From NCBI RefSeq assembly GCF_900172255.1, contig NZ_FWFU01000002.1, positions 1 to 64,000 of the forward strand: a stretch of 64,000 bases of DNA, read 5' to 3'. Positions 992-38,618 of the stretch are shown here, piece after piece; positions within the stretch are counted from its first letter, which is position 1, and every line of letters starts with the position of its first letter. The position numbers and the translations under genes were made by a program. Below the pieces are notes generated by a model. The model was not told where the DNA came from. It did no database searches and saw only the letters and a list, made by a program, of their open reading frames with translations. Source of the stretch: Roseovarius halotolerans. Lineage in GTDB: Bacteria; Pseudomonadota; Alphaproteobacteria; Rhodobacterales; Rhodobacteraceae.

Positions 992-2347
992 ATGACATCC
1001 GCCCCTATTCCAGTCCATGTCCCCCTGGTGACGGAACCGATGGGCATTCTCGCCAGCCTTCAGGCCGCAAGGCGCAACGTGCTGGCGATCATTCCGCGCA
1101 TCGCGACGATGCAGCCGATGGTGTCGGGGCGCACCGGCAAGCGATGGCATATGGTGATGGACCCCGGCGCGATCCGTCACATGCTGCTTGACCGGCTGGA
1201 CGACTACCCCAAGTCGCTCGTCACCAAGAACCTTCTGCGCCCGGCCATCGGCGAGTCGCTGTTCATTGCCGAGGGCGCGCATTGGCGCTGGCAGCGCCGC
1301 GCCGCCGCTCCAGTCTTTTCGCATCGCAACGTGATGAACCTGGCCCCGATCATGACCGCCGCTGCCGAACGCAGCTGCGCGCGTATCGCCGCCGCCGGGC
1401 CGCGCGCCATCGACATGGCCGAGGACATGGTGCGCACCACCTTCGACGTGATCGCCGATGTCACCTTTTCGGGCGATGGCACATTCGATGCCGACGAGGT
1501 CCACAAGGGGATCGACGCCTATATCTCCGAGGCGGGAAAGGTCTCGCTCTTCGACATCCTGGGTTTTCCCGACTGGGTGCCGCGGCCGGGGCGGATGGTC
1601 TCGGGCAATGCCGTGCGCCAGATGAAAAGCGTCGCCGATGCCGCTGTCGAAGCACGCCGCGCGCGCGGGCCCGACGGCGTGCCGGACCTGCTCGACCTTC
1701 TGCTTGAGGGCGAAGACCCCGAAACCAGGCGCCGCATGAACACCGCCGAGCTGCGCGACAACCTGCTGACCTTCATCGTTGCGGGTCATGAAACCACCGC
1801 GCTGACGCTGGGCTGGGCGCTTTATCTCTGCGCCTTTGATCAACAGGTGCAGGACCGCGCCCGCGCCGAGGCGCAGGCGCTGTTGCAGGGGCGCGCCGCC
1901 ACTGGCGAGGATATGGCCAAACTGCCCTATATCCGCATGATCATCGACGAGGCGCTGCGCCTTTACCCGCCCGCCGCGATGGTGTCGCGCACCGCGATGG
2001 CCGATGACACGCTGTGCGGGCGCGAGGTCAAAAAGGGCGACACCGTCATCATCCCGATCTATGCGCTGCATCGCAATCACCTGCTCTGGGATGACCCCGA
2101 CGCCTTTCGCCCCGAGCGGTTCAGCGACCGCAAGGCAATCGACCGCTATGCCTATCTGCCCTTCGGGGACGGGCCGCGCATCTGCATCGGCGCAAGTTTC
2201 GCCATCCAGGAGGCGGTGATCGTGCTGGCGACGCTTCTGTCGCGCTTTCGCTTCACACCCGTGCCGGGGCGCAGGCCCGACCCGGTGATGATCCTGACAC
2301 TTCGTCCCGAAGGCGGCGTCTGGCTCGAGGCCGAGCCGGTGGGCTGA
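992..2347 (+). CDS. Cytochrome P450
   Basis: This 451-residue haem-thiolate monooxygenase has all the hallmark P450 motifs. The I-helix oxygen-activation motif AGHETT is at 264-269, the K-helix ExxR (EALR) at 320-323, and the Cys-ligand loop FGDGPRICIG has the haem-ligating Cys at about 398. There is no N-terminal membrane anchor, so it should be a soluble bacterial class I enzyme that needs ferredoxin and a reductase encoded elsewhere. I chose the ATG at 992 because it gives the usual length; the frame stays open upstream. No redox partner or biosynthetic genes flank it, so the substrate cannot be inferred. Confidence 0.95.
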   Translation: MTSAPIPVHVPLVTEPMGILASLQAARRNVLAIIPRIATMQPMVSGRTGKRWHMVMDPGAIRHMLLDRLDDYPKSLVTKNLLRPAIGESLFIAEGAHWRWQRRAAAPVFSHRNVMNLAPIMTAAAERSCARIAAAGPRAIDMAEDMVRTTFDVIADVTFSGDGTFDADEVHKGIDAYISEAGKVSLFDILGFPDWVPRPGRMVSGNAVRQMKSVADAAVEARRARGPDGVPDLLDLLLEGEDPETRRRMNTAELRDNLLTFIVAGHETTALTLGWALYLCAFDQQVQDRARAEAQALLQGRAATGEDMAKLPYIRMIIDEALRLYPPAAMVSRTAMADDTLCGREVKKGDTVIIPIYALHRNHLLWDDPDAFRPERFSDRKAIDRYAYLPFGDGPRICIGASFAIQEAVIVLATLLSRFRFTPVPGRRPDPVMILTLRPEGGVWLEAEPVG

Positions 2348-26522: not shown

Positions 26523-27665
26523 TCACGCCACCCGCTCCCCGCGCGACCAGACCGAGCGCAGCGCCGGCACCCCGCCCCGCATGGCAAAGCGGATCAGATC
26601 GGCGCGCATCCCTTCGGCGATCTCGCCGCGATCCTCCAGCCCGACGCCCCGCGCCGGGTTGCGCGTGACCGTGGCCATTCCGCGCGCCATGTCGCCCCAG
26701 GTCTCGCCCAGTTGCACCGCCGCCAGCAGCAGCGCCGAGGGCACGTAGTCCGATGACAATATGTCCAGATGCCCCGCCGCCGCCAGGTCATGCGCCGCCA
26801 CATTACCGGAATGCGAGCCGCCCCGGATCAGGTTGGGGGCGCCCATGATGACCGCAATCGCGTGGTCGTGGCAGGCGCGCGCGGCCTCCAGCGTGGTGGG
26901 GAATTCGGCGATCCGGATACCGTAACCCGCCGATACCGCGACCTGCTCGGGCGTCGTGTCGTCATGGCTCGCGAGAACGGCACCAAAGCGCTTCGCCTCG
27001 GCTACAGCCGCCGCCTCGTGCCTGTCCCCGTTGCGCGCGCGCAGCTCCTTGAGCTGAGCGACATGCTCCTGGAACTCGGCGTCGTTCAGTGACAGCTTCC
27101 CCTTCACATAGGCTTCCAGCTTGCTGAGATCACGAAACTGCCGCTGGCCGGGCGTGTGGTCCATCAGGCTCACGATGCCCACGCGGTCTTCCTCTCCGAA
27201 GGCGGCCAGCTCCTCTTCCAGCGTCTCCGAGCACACCTCGGCGCGCAGATGCAGGAAATGGCTGATCTTCAACGCGTCCCCGGCCCGCAATGCCAGCAAT
27301 TCGCTGGCCAGCCCGCGGGCATATTTCACGTAGCGCCCCTTGCCGTTCGGGTTCGACCCGACCCGCATCGCATCGAACACCGTGGTAATCCCGGTGCTGG
27401 CCAGCTCGGCATCATGCGCGAGGATCGCGGCATTGTGGGGCCAGTCCACCTTGGGGCGCGGCTGGATATGCCGCTCGAGATTATCCGTGTGCAGTTCGAT
27501 CAACCCCGGCGCGACGACATCGCCGCCGCAATCGACAGCGCCTTTCGGCACCACCTTGCCGGTATCGATCCCTGCGATGGTTCCATCCCGCAGGACAATC
27601 GCCCCGGTGACCGTTTCATCAGGCAGGACAAGGGTGGCATTGGCGAGGATGGTCTCTTGTGTCAT
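26523..27665 (-). CDS. phnM: alpha-D-ribose 1-methylphosphonate 5-triphosphate diphosphatase
   Basis: This 380-residue amidohydrolase of the C-P lyase pathway removes pyrophosphate from ribose 1-methylphosphonate 5-triphosphate before PhnJ acts. The metal-binding motif HTDNLERH is near residues 59-66, and the PhnM-specific blocks SLMDHTPGQRQF, SHDDTTPE and MGAPNLIRGGSHSGN are all present. It reads away from the DUF1045 gene, with 50 bp between starts. It is set apart from the phnGHIJKLN operon by that gene. Confidence 0.95.
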   Translation of the reverse strand: MTQETILANATLVLPDETVTGAIVLRDGTIAGIDTGKVVPKGAVDCGGDVVAPGLIELHTDNLERHIQPRPKVDWPHNAAILAHDAELASTGITTVFDAMRVGSNPNGKGRYVKYARGLASELLALRAGDALKISHFLHLRAEVCSETLEEELAAFGEEDRVGIVSLMDHTPGQRQFRDLSKLEAYVKGKLSLNDAEFQEHVAQLKELRARNGDRHEAAAVAEAKRFGAVLASHDDTTPEQVAVSAGYGIRIAEFPTTLEAARACHDHAIAVIMGAPNLIRGGSHSGNVAAHDLAAAGHLDILSSDYVPSALLLAAVQLGETWGDMARGMATVTRNPARGVGLEDRGEIAEGMRADLIRFAMRGGVPALRSVWSRGERVA

Positions 27666-27715
27666 GAGGATGTCACGCTTCGCTGGCAGGGGTTGGCGCC
27701 GAAATGGAGGCAGGC

Positions 27716-33508: not shown

Positions 33509-33529
33509 CGCGTGAAATTTTCGTGACAT
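33509..33529 (-). promoter_or_regulatory. Pho-box-like site reading toward phnG
   Basis: On the minus strand ATGTCAC-GAAA-ATTTCAC gives two PhoB half-sites at the required 11-bp period (6 of 7 and 5 of 7 matches to CTGTCAC). It starts at the phnF start codon and lies about 85-105 bp upstream of phnG. Confidence 0.55.
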
Positions 33530-34244: not shown

Positions 34245-34321
34245 AGGATTCAAGCGGCTTGTCACGCCGCCGATACATTCATGCCCTAGCGTCAAGGGAA
34301 CAAGAGCGCGAGAGCAGCCCA

Positions 34322-35503
34322 ATGCAGATGCCATGGCCCGACATGCGCCTGACCGGCGCGACCGTCCTGCGCGGCGGCAAGATGCAGACCCGCTCGGTCG
34401 CGATCGAGCAGGGCCGCATCGGCAAGGGGCCATCTCCCGAGGTCGATCTCTCGGGCTACCTGATCCTGCCGGGCATCATCGACCTGCATGGTGACGCCTT
34501 CGAGCGCCATATCGCGCCGCGCCCCTCCGCGCCCTTCTCCGCCGAACAAGGGCTGATCGGCGCCGACCGCGAAGCCGCCGCCAATGGCGTGACCACCGCC
34601 TGGCTCGCGCAAAGCTGGTCCTGGGAAGGCGGGCGGCGCAGCCCCGACTACGCCGAATCCTTCCTCCATGCCTTTGACGCCTATCGCCACCGCATGAACA
34701 CCGACCTGCGCGTGCAGATCCGCTGCGAGACCCACACAGTCGACACCGCCGAACGCCTGATCGCCGCGATCCGGCGTCACCGCATCGGCTATGTCGTGTT
34801 CAACAACCATATCGAGGCCACGCTCAATATCGCCCATACCCGCCCCGAAAGGCTCGCCGCATGGGCGCATGAGGCCGGCCGCAGCCCGCGCGAACATCTC
34901 GCCGCACTCGAAGCCGCGCGCAACCAGCGTCAGGGCGTGCCCCGCCACCTCTGCCATCTCGCGCGCAATTTCGACGCGCTCGGGGTGATCTACGGCTCGC
35001 ATGACGACCCCGACGCCGAAACCCGCGAGACCTTCGCCATGATCGGCGCGCGGATCTGCGAGTTTCCCACGTCCCGCGCTGCGGCAAACCTTGCCAAGGC
35101 GGTCAATGACCCGGTCGTGATGGGTGCGCCCAACGTGGTGCGCGGCGGTTCGCAGGCGGGCAATATCTCGGCGCTCGACCTGATCGAGGCCGGCAAATGC
35201 GACGCCCTGGTCTCGGATTACTTCTACCCCGCCCTCTCGCAGGCCGCCTTCGCGCTCGTTGATCAGGGCATCGCCGATCTTCCCGCCGCCTGGGCGATGA
35301 TCTCCGAGACACCCGCGCGCATCATGCGCCTGACTGATCGCGGCACGCTCGAGGAGGGACAGCGCGCCGATATCGCCATCGTCAACGCCACCACCCGCGA
35401 GGTCGAAGCCACGCTGGTGCGCGGCCGGATCGCCCATCTTTCAGGCGAGGCGGCACAGCGATTCCTGCGCCTCGGCCAAAGCGTGTCCCTCGCGGCCGAA
35501 TAG
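34322..35503 (+). CDS. PhnM-like amidohydrolase, divergent paralogue
   Basis: This protein of about 393 residues is clearly homologous to PhnM: LPGIIDLHGDAFERH for the metal motif, GSHDDPDAE and VMGAPNVVRGGSQAGN further on. It differs from the true PhnM at 26.5 kb in key places: HGDAFERH replaces HTDNLERH, and NNHIEATLN replaces the MDHTPGQ block. That points to a changed substrate. It follows phnF by 77 bp on the same strand. The start at 34322 is chosen by a GAGAG site; in-frame ATGs at 34328 and 34343 are alternatives. Confidence 0.85.
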   Translation: MQMPWPDMRLTGATVLRGGKMQTRSVAIEQGRIGKGPSPEVDLSGYLILPGIIDLHGDAFERHIAPRPSAPFSAEQGLIGADREAAANGVTTAWLAQSWSWEGGRRSPDYAESFLHAFDAYRHRMNTDLRVQIRCETHTVDTAERLIAAIRRHRIGYVVFNNHIEATLNIAHTRPERLAAWAHEAGRSPREHLAALEAARNQRQGVPRHLCHLARNFDALGVIYGSHDDPDAETRETFAMIGARICEFPTSRAAANLAKAVNDPVVMGAPNVVRGGSQAGNISALDLIEAGKCDALVSDYFYPALSQAAFALVDQGIADLPAAWAMISETPARIMRLTDRGTLEEGQRADIAIVNATTREVEATLVRGRIAHLSGEAAQRFLRLGQSVSLAAE

Positions 35504-35516
35504 GTGCGAACCGGGC

Positions 35517-35538
35517 CTGTCACGAAGTTTTCATGAAA
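35517..35538 (+). promoter_or_regulatory. Pho-box-like site upstream of a candidate small RNA
   Basis: CTGTCAC-GAAG-TTTTCAT-GAAA shows two PhoB half-sites exactly 11 bp apart (7 of 7 and 5 of 7 matches). A possible -10, TAGCGT, is at 35548-35553. No coding gene follows on this strand before the terminator at 35657. Confidence 0.55.
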
Positions 35539-35559
35539 TCATCGCCGTAGCGTCGTGGG

Positions 35560-35658
35560 AATCGCCGAGTTTCGCAATACGGACTGCCCCCGTATTGTCC
35601 TGAAATCCCTTTCAATAACGAAACACAGGGTGTCCCCGAAACCGGGGGCACCCTTTTC
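35560..35658 (+). ncRNA. Candidate small RNA, about 100 nt
   Basis: The stretch has no credible open frame. It contains a perfect 8-bp hairpin CAATACGG-N7-CCGTATTG (35575-35597), a pyrimidine-rich single-stranded linker, and an intrinsic terminator at 35627-35657. A Pho-box-like site and a possible -10 precede it. This is the typical order of a trans-acting small RNA: 5' hairpin, linker, terminator hairpin with T run. The start is estimated from the -10 position. The alternative is a long 3' leader of the PhnM-like gene. Confidence 0.4.
35627..35657 (+). terminator. Intrinsic terminator, right of the PhnM-like gene
   Basis: GGGTGTCCCC pairs with GGGGGCACCC through ten bases (one G-T) around a six-base loop, followed by TTTT. 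It lies 124 bp beyond the PhnM-like gene's stop, which is far for that gene and suggests its own transcript. Confidence 0.85.
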
Positions 35659-35683
35659 AGTCACGGGCGCGCAGCCACCGGGT

Positions 35684-36301
35684 TCATCCGCCGTGCTTTT
35701 CCAGAAACGCCTCGGCAGACAACGCCCGAAAGTCCGCAAGGGCCGCGCGCAGGCGGGCATGGTCCCAATCCCACCAGGCCAGCGCGATCAGCCGGCCGGC
35801 CACCGCTTCGGGCAGGCGGGCGCGCACCGGGCGCGCGGGCACGCCCGCGACGATCTGATAGGGCGCCACGTCCTTCGTCACCACCGCGCCCGAGGCCACC
35901 ACCGCCCCGTGGCCGACCGTCACCTCGGGCTTGACCTGCGCCCCGTGCCCGAGCCACGTATCATGACCGATCGTCGCGCGGCGCGCCCGGCGCGCGCGAA
36001 ACCAGTCCGCATCGTCCTCGGCGTCAGGCCAGTAACTGGCCGAGCGATACATGAAATGGTGCAGGCTGGCGCGGTCGAGCGGATGATCCGTCGCGCCGAT
36101 CCTCACGAAACTGGCGATATTGGCGAACCGCCCGACATCGGCATTGGCGATATCGCAATAGCGGTCGCAATAGGAATAATCGCCGATCACCGAATAGGCC
36201 ACCCGGCTGCCGCGCCCGATCTCGCTATAGGCGCCGAAATCGCTCTCGGTGATCTCGCAATCGGGATGCACGTTCGCACCGTCGGCCCTCAAGTTCTTCA
36301 T
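35684..36301 (-). CDS. Phosphonate-locus hexapeptide-repeat acyltransferase
   Basis: This protein of about 205 residues has a left-handed beta-helix made of hexapeptide repeats, seen from YSEIGRGSRVAYSVIG through DVGRFANIASFVRIG to IGHDTWLGHGAQVKPEVTVG. It resembles the acetyltransferase family often placed with phn genes, where it may acetylate aminoalkyl phosphonates, a role like PhnO. The HPLDRASLHHFMYRS block is the catalytic-His region of CAT-like xenobiotic acetyltransferases. The start at 36301 trims a low-complexity extension. Confidence 0.85.
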   Translation of the reverse strand: MKNLRADGANVHPDCEITESDFGAYSEIGRGSRVAYSVIGDYSYCDRYCDIANADVGRFANIASFVRIGATDHPLDRASLHHFMYRSASYWPDAEDDADWFRARRARRATIGHDTWLGHGAQVKPEVTVGHGAVVASGAVVTKDVAPYQIVAGVPARPVRARLPEAVAGRLIALAWWDWDHARLRAALADFRALSAEAFLEKHGG

Positions 36302-36388
36302 CTTTCCGCGTCCCTTGCCCGCTGCGCCATTCCCGCGACCCGGCTTCATCTTGTCCGAAACATTCCTGCCGGCGTCGTCCCGCCATCG

Positions 36389-37741
36389 TCAGTGGCCGCT
36401 GTCATCCGACCGGATCAACCGGCGTCGCAACCAGCCAGATACCGAATCCATCAACATGACCATGAGCAGGATGAGTATGATGTAATAGCTCACCTCCTCC
36501 CAGTCCTTCTGGGTGATCATCGCCTGGGTCAGCAACAACCCGATGCCGCCCCCCGTGATCGCGCCGATGATCGTGGCGCTGCGGGTGTTGGATTCCAGGT
36601 AATAGAGAACCTGGCTCAGCAGGATCGGCGTGATCTGCGGAATGACCCCGAAACGATAGCGTTGCAGCGGCTTTGCGCCGGTGGATTGCACGCCCTCGAT
36701 CTGGTTCTTGTCGACATTCTCCAGGGCCTCGGAAAACAGCTTGCCGAAGCTCCCGGTGTCGGTGATCAGGATCGCCAGCGCTCCGGTCAGCGGCCCCGGC
36801 CCGAAGGCGCGCGCCAGGATGATCGTCCAGATCAGCGCATCCACCCCCCGCACGAAGTCGAACACCCGCCGCACAGCGGCGCGCACCACCATCAGCGGGG
36901 AAAAGTTGCGCGCGGCGGCAAAGGCCAGCGGCAACGCCACCAGCGCCGCCCCCATCGTGCCCAGGAACGCCATCAGGATCGTCTCGAAGATCGCCCAGAC
37001 CACGTCCCGATGCTGCCACATGCTGTTGGTCCAGACATCGTGGATCATGGCGGCCAGATTGCTCTTGCCCGCCACCAGCCGGTCGCCCGACACGGCCAGC
37101 CCGACCAACTCGCCGAAACTCTTGCCATAAAAGGGGCTGTCGAGCGTGAACCAGAACAGCTCCCAGCCGAAATGATATCGCATCACCTCGGTGCGGGCCT
37201 TGGTCAGGATGACGCGCCCGGCATCGGTGGTGATATCGACCCGCGCGTTGCTGGCGCTGATCCAGTCGGGGATCTCGCCCGCCGGAAGGTCCAGCGCGAT
37301 ACCGCGGCGGCTCACTTCGGCCTCGATCAGCCCGTAGCCCGGCACGTCATAGCGCATCCTGTCGCCGTCCAGCAGCACCTCCTGCCCGTGCTTGAGCGAA
37401 ACCAGCGCGCGGTCGTCATTCCCGATATCGACCCAGTCGGGACTCGTGCCCTCGGGCCATGTGCCCTTGTTCTCGCCTTCCACCGCAACGGTGATCCCGC
37501 CGACGCGATTGTCGCGCGTCACATGGGTCTTGTAGCTGTAGCTGTCGGCGACAAGGATGCGGGCATTGTCCATGCGCGCCCGCTCCGCAAGGCCCGGAAT
37601 GTCGAAGGCGAAGAAGATATAGACGAAATAAGCCAGGATGACGGCGGGAATGGCAAAGGCCAGCAGCCGCTTGCGCTGAAAGAAGGCGGTAGCGTCAAAC
37701 AGCGCGGCGCCGGTCCCGGCAGTGTTGCTCGATGCGCTCAT
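36389..37741 (-). CDS. phnE2: Phosphonate ABC transporter permease, long form
   Basis: This 450-residue inner-membrane permease has one N-terminal helix (about 29-49), then a periplasmic insert of roughly 150 residues, then the permease domain with the EAA-type loop (ENVDKNQIEGVQSTGAKPLQ). This long form occurs with a shorter PhnE1 in phosphonate importers. It is the second permease of the phnCDE1E2 system. phnE1 ends four bases upstream. Confidence 0.94.
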   Translation of the reverse strand: MSASSNTAGTGAALFDATAFFQRKRLLAFAIPAVILAYFVYIFFAFDIPGLAERARMDNARILVADSYSYKTHVTRDNRVGGITVAVEGENKGTWPEGTSPDWVDIGNDDRALVSLKHGQEVLLDGDRMRYDVPGYGLIEAEVSRRGIALDLPAGEIPDWISASNARVDITTDAGRVILTKARTEVMRYHFGWELFWFTLDSPFYGKSFGELVGLAVSGDRLVAGKSNLAAMIHDVWTNSMWQHRDVVWAIFETILMAFLGTMGAALVALPLAFAAARNFSPLMVVRAAVRRVFDFVRGVDALIWTIILARAFGPGPLTGALAILITDTGSFGKLFSEALENVDKNQIEGVQSTGAKPLQRYRFGVIPQITPILLSQVLYYLESNTRSATIIGAITGGGIGLLLTQAMITQKDWEEVSYYIILILLMVMLMDSVSGWLRRRLIRSDDSGH

Positions 37742-37745
37742 CGCC

Positions 37746-38618
37746 TTAACCCCTTCCGATCATCTTGTTGCGGTAATGGCCCGATATCTGGTCGAAAACC
37801 ACGATGGTCGCGAACAGCAGCAGAAAGATCGCGGCCACCTCGTCATAGCGGCCTTGACCCCAGCTGAACGCGTTCTTCAGGTCGTAGCCGATCCCGCCCG
37901 ACCCCACGAAACCCAGGATCGCCGAGGCCCTTACATTGATCTCGAAGCGCAGCAGCGCATAGCTCAGGTAATTGGGCGCGACCTGCGGGATCACGCCCAG
38001 CCACATCCGCTGCGCCCATGTGGCGCCAACCGATTGCAGCCCCTCGACCGGCTTGAGACTCGCATTCTCGTTCACTTCCGAGAACAGCTTTCCAAGCGCC
38101 CCGGTAGTGTGGATGGCGATGGCGATCATCGCCGGAACCGGCCCGCCGCCCAGAATGAAGATCAGCACCAGCGCGATGACGATCTCGGGGATCGCGCGCA
38201 GGATATCCATGATCCGCCGGAACACCCCGATCAGCCGCGGCCATTTCGCCAGACCCCGCGTCGCCAGCAGCGAGATCACGATCGCGAAGATTGCCCCCAG
38301 CAGGGTCGAGGCCGCCGCGATATTCAGGGTCTCCAGCAGCGAGGGCAGGAATTTCACCATCAGCCCCGGCAGGTTGGCGATCTTCTCGCCCGCCTCCGTC
38401 AGTACTTCCTTGGGGAACTGAAAGATATTGCCGATTCCGTCCCAGAAACCGCCGGCATTGCGCCCGTCGGCCACCCGGAAACCCGACACCATCAGCGCGA
38501 TGAACACCACCAGCATCACCATGCCGTAAAGCCGCTTGCGCCGTGTCATGTCCATATAGGCGGTCTGGATGTCCTGCACCCCGGCCGCACCGGCCTGCGC
38601 CGCTGTCAGATCGCTCAT
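37746..38618 (-). CDS. phnE1: Phosphonate ABC transporter permease
   Basis: This 290-residue inner-membrane protein has the EAA loop NENASLKPVEGLQSVGATWA near residues 195-214 and about six transmembrane helices. It forms a heterodimeric channel with PhnE2 and is driven by PhnC. A GC-rich hairpin sits between phnD and this gene. Confidence 0.95.
   Translation of the reverse strand: MSDLTAAQAGAAGVQDIQTAYMDMTRRKRLYGMVMLVVFIALMVSGFRVADGRNAGGFWDGIGNIFQFPKEVLTEAGEKIANLPGLMVKFLPSLLETLNIAAASTLLGAIFAIVISLLATRGLAKWPRLIGVFRRIMDILRAIPEIVIALVLIFILGGGPVPAMIAIAIHTTGALGKLFSEVNENASLKPVEGLQSVGATWAQRMWLGVIPQVAPNYLSYALLRFEINVRASAILGFVGSGGIGYDLKNAFSWGQGRYDEVAAIFLLLFATIVVFDQISGHYRNKMIGRG

Follow-up and report, generated by a model that had tools for sequence, protein, structure and literature searches.

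The gap behind phnM in Roseovarius halotolerans probably holds a small RNA gene that belongs to the Pho regulon and is activated by PhoB, a reading to which a probability of about 0.6 is assigned from sequence analysis. The predicted gene apparently represents a new family, undescribed and with no match in Rfam; its kind is in itself ordinary. The Pho box, its phasing across the genus, a conserved block, the terminator, the single copy and the conserved place beside phnM are computed features of this gap and its relatives. A phosphate-regulated small RNA had been proposed here in an earlier, sequence-only reading, whose main claim is better founded than that view allowed, with two of its details not borne out. 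A PhoB-driven non-coding unit is supported by conservation in 15 of 16 loci of the genus, by its occurrence in some other genera, by promoter phasing and by its single copy, whereas the start of transcription, the -10 element and the upstream hairpin first proposed are not.

Genomic setting of the gap

In the window (the whole stretch of DNA analysed, 64,000 nt), phnM encodes alpha-D-ribose 1-methylphosphonate 5-triphosphate diphosphatase and occupies 34259–35503 of the plus strand, upstream of the candidate unit. Its product matches NF011987 at 385.9 bits, above the cut-off; the match covers residues from 34304, and the true start may lie further in than that of the open reading frame. Its stop codon lies at 35501–35503. 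A gene for a phosphonate-linked hexapeptide-repeat acetyltransferase (TIGR03308; 35684–36349, minus strand) converges with it and ends at 35684, which leaves a gap of 180 nt (35504–35683). This gene lies 3' of phnE, phnE, phnD and phnC on the same strand (two permeases, a phosphonate-binding protein and an ABC ATPase), while phnG, followed by phnH to phnN as judged from gene order and sequence, runs in the opposite direction from 33425. Because phnM and the acetyltransferase gene converge on the gap, no protein gene is apparent that a plus-strand Pho box behind phnM could control. The genome encodes PhoB (TIGR02154, 352 bits, above the cut-off), and the nearest named record by PhnM is Roseovarius sp. 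EGI FJ00037, at 90% identity.

The elements originally listed for the gap (its 180-nt length, half-sites, hexamer, hairpins and TTTT) are all present in the sequence, which combines promoter features and an intrinsic terminator in an intergenic stretch that lacks a conserved open reading frame. No shared reading frame was seen by eye in the Roseovarius gaps. A 770-codon open frame on the plus strand (35555–37867), antisense to the acetyltransferase gene and a phnE, resembles a by-product of high G+C content.

A predicted PhoB-binding array behind phnM

The predicted PhoB-binding array occupies 35517–35560 of the plus strand and consists of four 11-bp units, CTGTCACGAAG TTTTCATGAAA TCATCGCCGTA GCGTCGTGGGA, recognized by half-site scoring and a phnG-derived matrix. 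The first two units form a strong Pho box, with half-sites CTGTCAC at 35517 and TTTTCAT at 35528 arranged as a direct repeat spaced 11 bp, while the third and fourth are weak (3/6 and 4/6). Each Pho box was compared with a pair of consensus PhoB half-sites (TGTCAY) spaced 11 bp, for a maximum score of 12; on this scale CTGTCACGAAG TTTTCAT reaches 11. Scores of at least 11 occur at only three sites on both strands of the 64 kb. The other two, which serve as internal positive controls, precede phnG (33512–33528, minus strand) and a DUF1045 phosphonate gene at 27704 (27660–27676, plus strand, 12/12). Given its 12/12 box, the DUF1045 gene is probably a Pho promoter unit of its own.

To rank sites without leaning on the TGTCAY consensus, a 30-column matrix was built on 77 named related loci, each of which contributed the best box ahead of its phnG; the gap site was left out. 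A phnG gene was found in 77 of 80 named loci, and every one of the 77 has an upstream box scoring at least 9/12. Across about 128,000 window positions the matrix gives the phnG site the top score (33.4), followed by the gap site in second place (22.0) and then the DUF1045 site (16.7). The gap site ranks between 1 and 4 of 12,872–38,354 positions in nine of ten named Roseovarius loci; in seven chosen loci of other genera the best gap site ranks only 3rd to 22nd. By the 12-point score, eight of the ten named Roseovarius gaps contain a box of at least 9, where about 0.05 would be expected per 60 starts. The two half-sites 11 bp apart that had been noted from the sequence are present at 11/12, beyond chance, and conserved in the genus.

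Conservation of the block and terminator in Roseovarius

A phnM search in 84 same-genus genomes yielded 16 loci of the present phnM type, the window's own included. In 15 of these gaps a Pho box is followed by a short non-coding stretch, a block with the consensus TTTCATSACCAAAC, a GC hairpin and then T. The box stands after the phnM stop in all 15 (116 nt past it in one) and scores 9–11/12 in 13 and 8 in two. The exception is R. litoreus, whose gap is shortened and lacks the box and the full block. The leader and hairpin vary between species.

In the window the block reads TTTCAATAACGAAAC (35610–35624, plus strand), with an extra base relative to the consensus, and is a candidate pairing region. 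It lies within two mismatches of TTTCANSACCAAA in seven of the ten named Roseovarius loci, the nearest relative's own copy being at three. The intrinsic terminator follows at 35627–35657, with a 12-bp GC-rich stem containing one G-T pair (35627–35654), the loop AAAC and TTTT at 35654–35657. The strong terminator reported from the sequence, 124 nt beyond phnM, is thus real and conserved. In a model of the block and hairpin, 90% of cells are paired and three of eight pairs are changed on both sides.

The distribution of differences from the nearest relative follows these elements. The Pho region is identical at 29/33 positions and the block plus terminator at 49/53; the middle, which includes an 8-bp hairpin, agrees at 35/55 and the tail at 15/28. 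In the two flanking genes, 170/218 and 91/116 fourfold-degenerate positions agree.

Promoter phasing and the predicted RNA

PhoB-dependent promoters such as that of E. coli phoA comprise two 11-bp units, 6 nt and a -10 element. The gap departs from this arrangement: its units number four, its predicted -10 is poor and no coding sequence follows. For each 2 x 11-bp box or array of the genus, the best -10 hexamer was sought among spacings of 5, 6 and 7. Spacing 6 gives the best hexamer outright in 13 of 15 same-genus loci, several of whose species are closely related, so that they amount to fewer than 15 independent observations; the remaining two loci, the window and its nearest relative, tie. 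With the sequence after the box shuffled, spacing 6 is best in 3.3 loci on average, and 13 was reached in 0 of 2000 trials.

The phasing of the relatives places the predicted -10 of the window at GAGTTT (35567–35572, plus strand), 6 nt past the fourth unit. This hexamer matches TATAAT at only 2/6 and is tied with CGTAGC at spacing 7 past the first pair; the nearest relative has CAGTTT at spacing 6, likewise tied at 2/6 with spacing 7 after the first pair. The hexamer first put forward as a -10, TAGCGT (35548–35553), found no support: the nearest relative lacks such a hexamer there, genus phasing points to 35567–35572, and TAGCGT was accordingly rejected as part of the promoter.

A perfect 8-bp hairpin (35575–35597, plus strand), which overlaps the predicted start of transcription, had also been assigned to the gene. 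It is present in the window and unremarkable by chance, as a hairpin just as good turns up in 16 of the window's 355 tiles and in 38 of 2000 shuffles. None of the 14 same-genus relatives tested has a perfect hairpin of at least 6 bp within the 60 nt that precede the block. The hairpin was rejected as part of the gene on both grounds.

Conservation extends to the terminator stem and not to the upstream hairpin, so the start and -10 need to be redrawn: the terminator of the unit originally outlined is retained, and the beginning moves from about 35556 to about 35580. The resulting predicted small RNA, placed by phasing and folding, would span about 78 nt (35580–35657, plus strand), with a 5' end uncertain by several nucleotides. 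The stretch 35557–35661 folds more stably than all 200 shuffles (z -4.8).

Copy number and specificity of the block and hairpin model

The unit is present as a single copy in its own genome, both by DNA search (next match at E 0.17) and by R1, a model of the block and hairpin built without any promoter (41.4 bits; next match 26.7). With only a few candidates scored per genome, R1 matches 217 of 394 genomes of the family at E 0.01 and 13 of 321 genomes of the order at E 3e-5. The weaker matches examined mostly lack a Pho promoter, and R1 gave four weak matches in 14 loci of a second phnM type. One seemingly ordinary terminator (G587, L196), which presumably lies behind cox3, scores 40.9 bits, and a Pho-linked match in G136 scores 40.1. 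The score alone therefore cannot separate the two kinds, and an R1 match elsewhere is no proof of a unit.

In one search R1 was given only 43 sources, chosen for a long or interesting gap. Outside the genus, R1 has seven matches beside phnM, and their upstream Pho promoters are better than those of 32 other matches (Mann-Whitney p 0.0002); the difference persists with one match per genus, five of them beside phnM (p 0.001). Both tests exclude the window's own match (L044), a gdpD-type match (L043) and two same-genus phnM-side matches (L194 and L195), and two of the 32 others (L048 and L203) are one place on both strands. The pattern GTGAGTGNGACNNCN{40,70}TTTMANNACCAAA occurs three times in 394 genomes, always at known phnM-linked places, and its reversed control not at all. 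Rfam gave no match over the gathering threshold in the window or in 12 related loci, and two sub-threshold matches on the other strand.

Two R1 matches, L045 and L047, have Pho-promoter-like upstream sequence (scores 12 and 15) with no phnM or acetyltransferase match nearby. L045 (about 1501–1650, minus strand) shows a Pho-box-like array, TATCCA, GAGTGAGCGCG and a block with terminator; it may be a relocated copy of the unit and, by reading, stands behind a DUF1045-like gene and faces an apparent rpsD. L047 (1400–1541) carries a strong Pho promoter (GCGTCATCTGT CTGTCACGCAG CGCCGC TATAGC), then a block-like stretch and terminator, and is possibly a second Pho small RNA; its neighbours, by reading, are a GntR-like gene and a 53-aa open reading frame with no Pfam or NCBIfam match. 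As L193 (12) and L198 (13) have comparable Pho scores yet are unconvincing, L045 and L047 are to be treated as anecdotes.

These results bear on the possibility that the hairpin is a mere two-way terminator of the convergent phnM and acetyltransferase operons, with an incidental Pho box. Several observations agree with it: a convergent acetyltransferase gene is found in 16 of 16 same-genus loci, R1 also matches seemingly ordinary terminators elsewhere, and the reverse strand of the block reads TGTTTGG after the stem, so that the AAAC of the block beside the stem could double as the T run of a reverse-direction terminator. Moreover, a simple terminator scan reports a minus-strand terminator-like site here and does not report the plus-strand hairpin, presumably owing to its short T run. 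Nevertheless, a two-way terminator leaves unexplained a Pho array with a phased -10 right behind the phnM stop, and it was rejected as the likeliest reading. Nor does it account for the block-like stretches that were seen by eye in L091, L147 and L134 at about 20 nt from the stem, a position that argues against the block being a mere reverse T run. This explanation is considered unlikely.

Occurrence in other genera and the gdpD gene

Family-wide phnM searches revealed three states of the region: near-abutting genes, an intervening gdpD in a few loci, or a non-coding gap. Fewer than 35 nt separate phnM from the acetyltransferase gene in 35 of 80 named loci, which leaves no unit there. Thirty named loci outside the genus have either no acetyltransferase match or a gap of 100 nt or more; nine of them contain a box scoring at least 9 within the first 60 starts, where the background rate would give 1.4. 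The block occurs with at most two mismatches in four of 53 non-genus gaps reached through phnM, against 0.28 expected from shuffles. In several non-genus gaps a Pho box is followed after 6–7 nt by a -10 (TAAACA, TAGGCA, TATGGG or TATGCA) and, after a further 6–9 nt, by GTGAGTGTGACCGC or a close form, which thus lies near the expected first base; some of these spacings were read by eye. In L086 and L147 a small hairpin 60–100 nt past the phnM stop holds AGTGAGTG in its loop (AAGGTG-AGTGAGTG-CACCTT in L086), a loop that resembles the GTGAGTG start of other genera.

A GDPD-type open reading frame follows phnM in L132, L134, L139, L161, L087 and L090 (PF03009 was tested for L139 only). Such a gene, with or without the acetyltransferase gene beyond, stands after 10245 in L134, 10161 in L161, 4819 in L139 and 10212 in L132, and its position beside phnM places phosphodiester use within the C-P lyase locus. 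It might accordingly be supposed that the Pho box and terminator of the gap are remnants of a lost Pho-regulated gdpD, still retained here in some relatives. The occurrence of the gene in these six loci fits such a history, as does its Pho-box-like site, with a score of 11 in L139 and 9 in L134 that falls to 8 in L132 and to 7 in L161; so does G344 (L090/L043), where a block and terminator lie behind gdpD with no clear second box. However, each of the two Actibacterium loci has a terminator-like hairpin at the end of gdpD and, beyond it, another Pho-box-like array. The separate unit of A. lipolyticum (L161) combines a 9/12 box with CATAAT at spacing 6; the second box of A. naphthalenivorans (L134) scores only 8/12. 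A second unit after gdpD speaks against a simple relic, and Roseovarius keeps the box and block while the middle drifts. The relic was rejected as the likeliest reading, and it is regarded as quite improbable.

An effect in cis, in which a Pho-induced convergent transcript modulates either the 3' end of the phnCDEE-acetyltransferase message or its stability, is very unlikely. The unit does face the acetyltransferase 3' end in the 15 unit-bearing loci of the genus, but its terminator stands before the acetyltransferase stop, and L045 and L047 carry their Pho-promoter-like sequence with no match to either gene nearby. The chance that the transcript encodes a micropeptide, with GTGAGTGTGACCGC of other genera serving as a leaderless GTG start (VSVTA...), is slight indeed: the GTG lies near the predicted first base and the first five codons agree in five of six translated sequences, but three of the six frames stop after 9, 19 or 24 codons (the others being open over the 40 codons displayed), and the GTGAGTGTGACCGC motif was not seen by eye in the Roseovarius gaps.

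Proposed mechanism and targets

For a PhoB-activated small RNA gene, the favoured reading, the following course of events may be envisaged. Under scarce phosphate, phosphorylated PhoB would bind the half-site array at 35517–35560 and recruit RNA polymerase to the weak -10, probably 35567–35572. Transcription would start near 35580, pass through a short leader and the block (35610–35624) and stop at the hairpin (35627–35657), releasing an RNA of about 80 nt. This RNA may then act by pairing, through the block or the C-rich leader, with messages encoded elsewhere. Transcription, its start, its control by phosphate and this pairing are what we infer from the computed features.

The sequence-only reading had also called the RNA trans-acting, for which direct support was not obtained. 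When the leader and block of ten Roseovarius RNAs were tested for pairing at the translation starts of 15 genes of the phn locus, no consistent target appeared, mean z lying between -0.9 and 0.6 (lowest -0.89, for phnC). The block complement TTTGGTSATGRA matched 29 times in ten genomes, against once for the reversed-pattern control; five matches are the small RNA locus itself, the other recurrent ones lie inside coding frames, and no recurrent start-site target emerged in these genomes. Action in trans is thus something we infer for the predicted RNA. One conjecture is that ribosome-binding sites are within reach of the C-rich leader, which reads UGUCCCC in many Roseovarius and UGUCCUGAAAUCCC in the window.

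Comparison with known systems and significance

Roseobacters are common phosphonate users, and Ruegeria pomeroyi, for which small RNAs have been catalogued, belongs to the Rhodobacteraceae. Several phosphate-related RNAs offer points of comparison. In E. coli, a PhoB-induced small RNA acts on rpoS (Ruiz and Silhavy 2003, cited in PMC8829014). It resembles the present unit in its reported low-phosphate induction through PhoB and differs in being enteric and having a known target; the comparison is one of description. The account in PMC8829014 also covers phosphate-responsive small RNAs of Sinorhizobium meliloti, part of them Hfq-bound. These are likewise alphaproteobacterial and change in level at low phosphate, but that account reports no link to a phn locus; the comparison again rests on description, and no Rfam family fits the present unit. 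In R. pomeroyi DSS-3, RNA-seq under carbon and nitrogen limitation identified intergenic trans-encoded small RNAs (PMC4809877). The limitation differs from that proposed here, and the main text of the article does not use the words phosphonate, phn, PhoB or Pho box. As described in PMC12506140, small RNAs act on phoB, a relationship distinct from small RNAs driven by PhoB. No report was found of a small RNA or other RNA regulator tied to the phn locus of Rhodobacteraceae, a weak negative, since the search reached few papers of the subscription literature.

A broader, tentative and less likely hypothesis is that the unit represents a Pho-regulon small RNA of the Rhodobacteraceae, usually found where the C-P lyase locus ends in phnM but movable (beside a DUF1045-like gene in G136 and a GntR-like gene in G125), which would form the RNA arm of the roseobacter phosphate response. 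Its single-stranded UUUCA-n-SACCAAA might silence genes whose cost is high in times of phosphorus shortage, and in some genera the RNA may also carry a leaderless GUG micro-ORF and so have a dual function. The use of methylphosphonate by bacteria has been proposed as a marine source of methane (PMC3840354). If the main reading is true, a PhoB-driven RNA at the phn locus would provide a small, deletable gene with which to probe a post-transcriptional layer of the roseobacter phosphate response.
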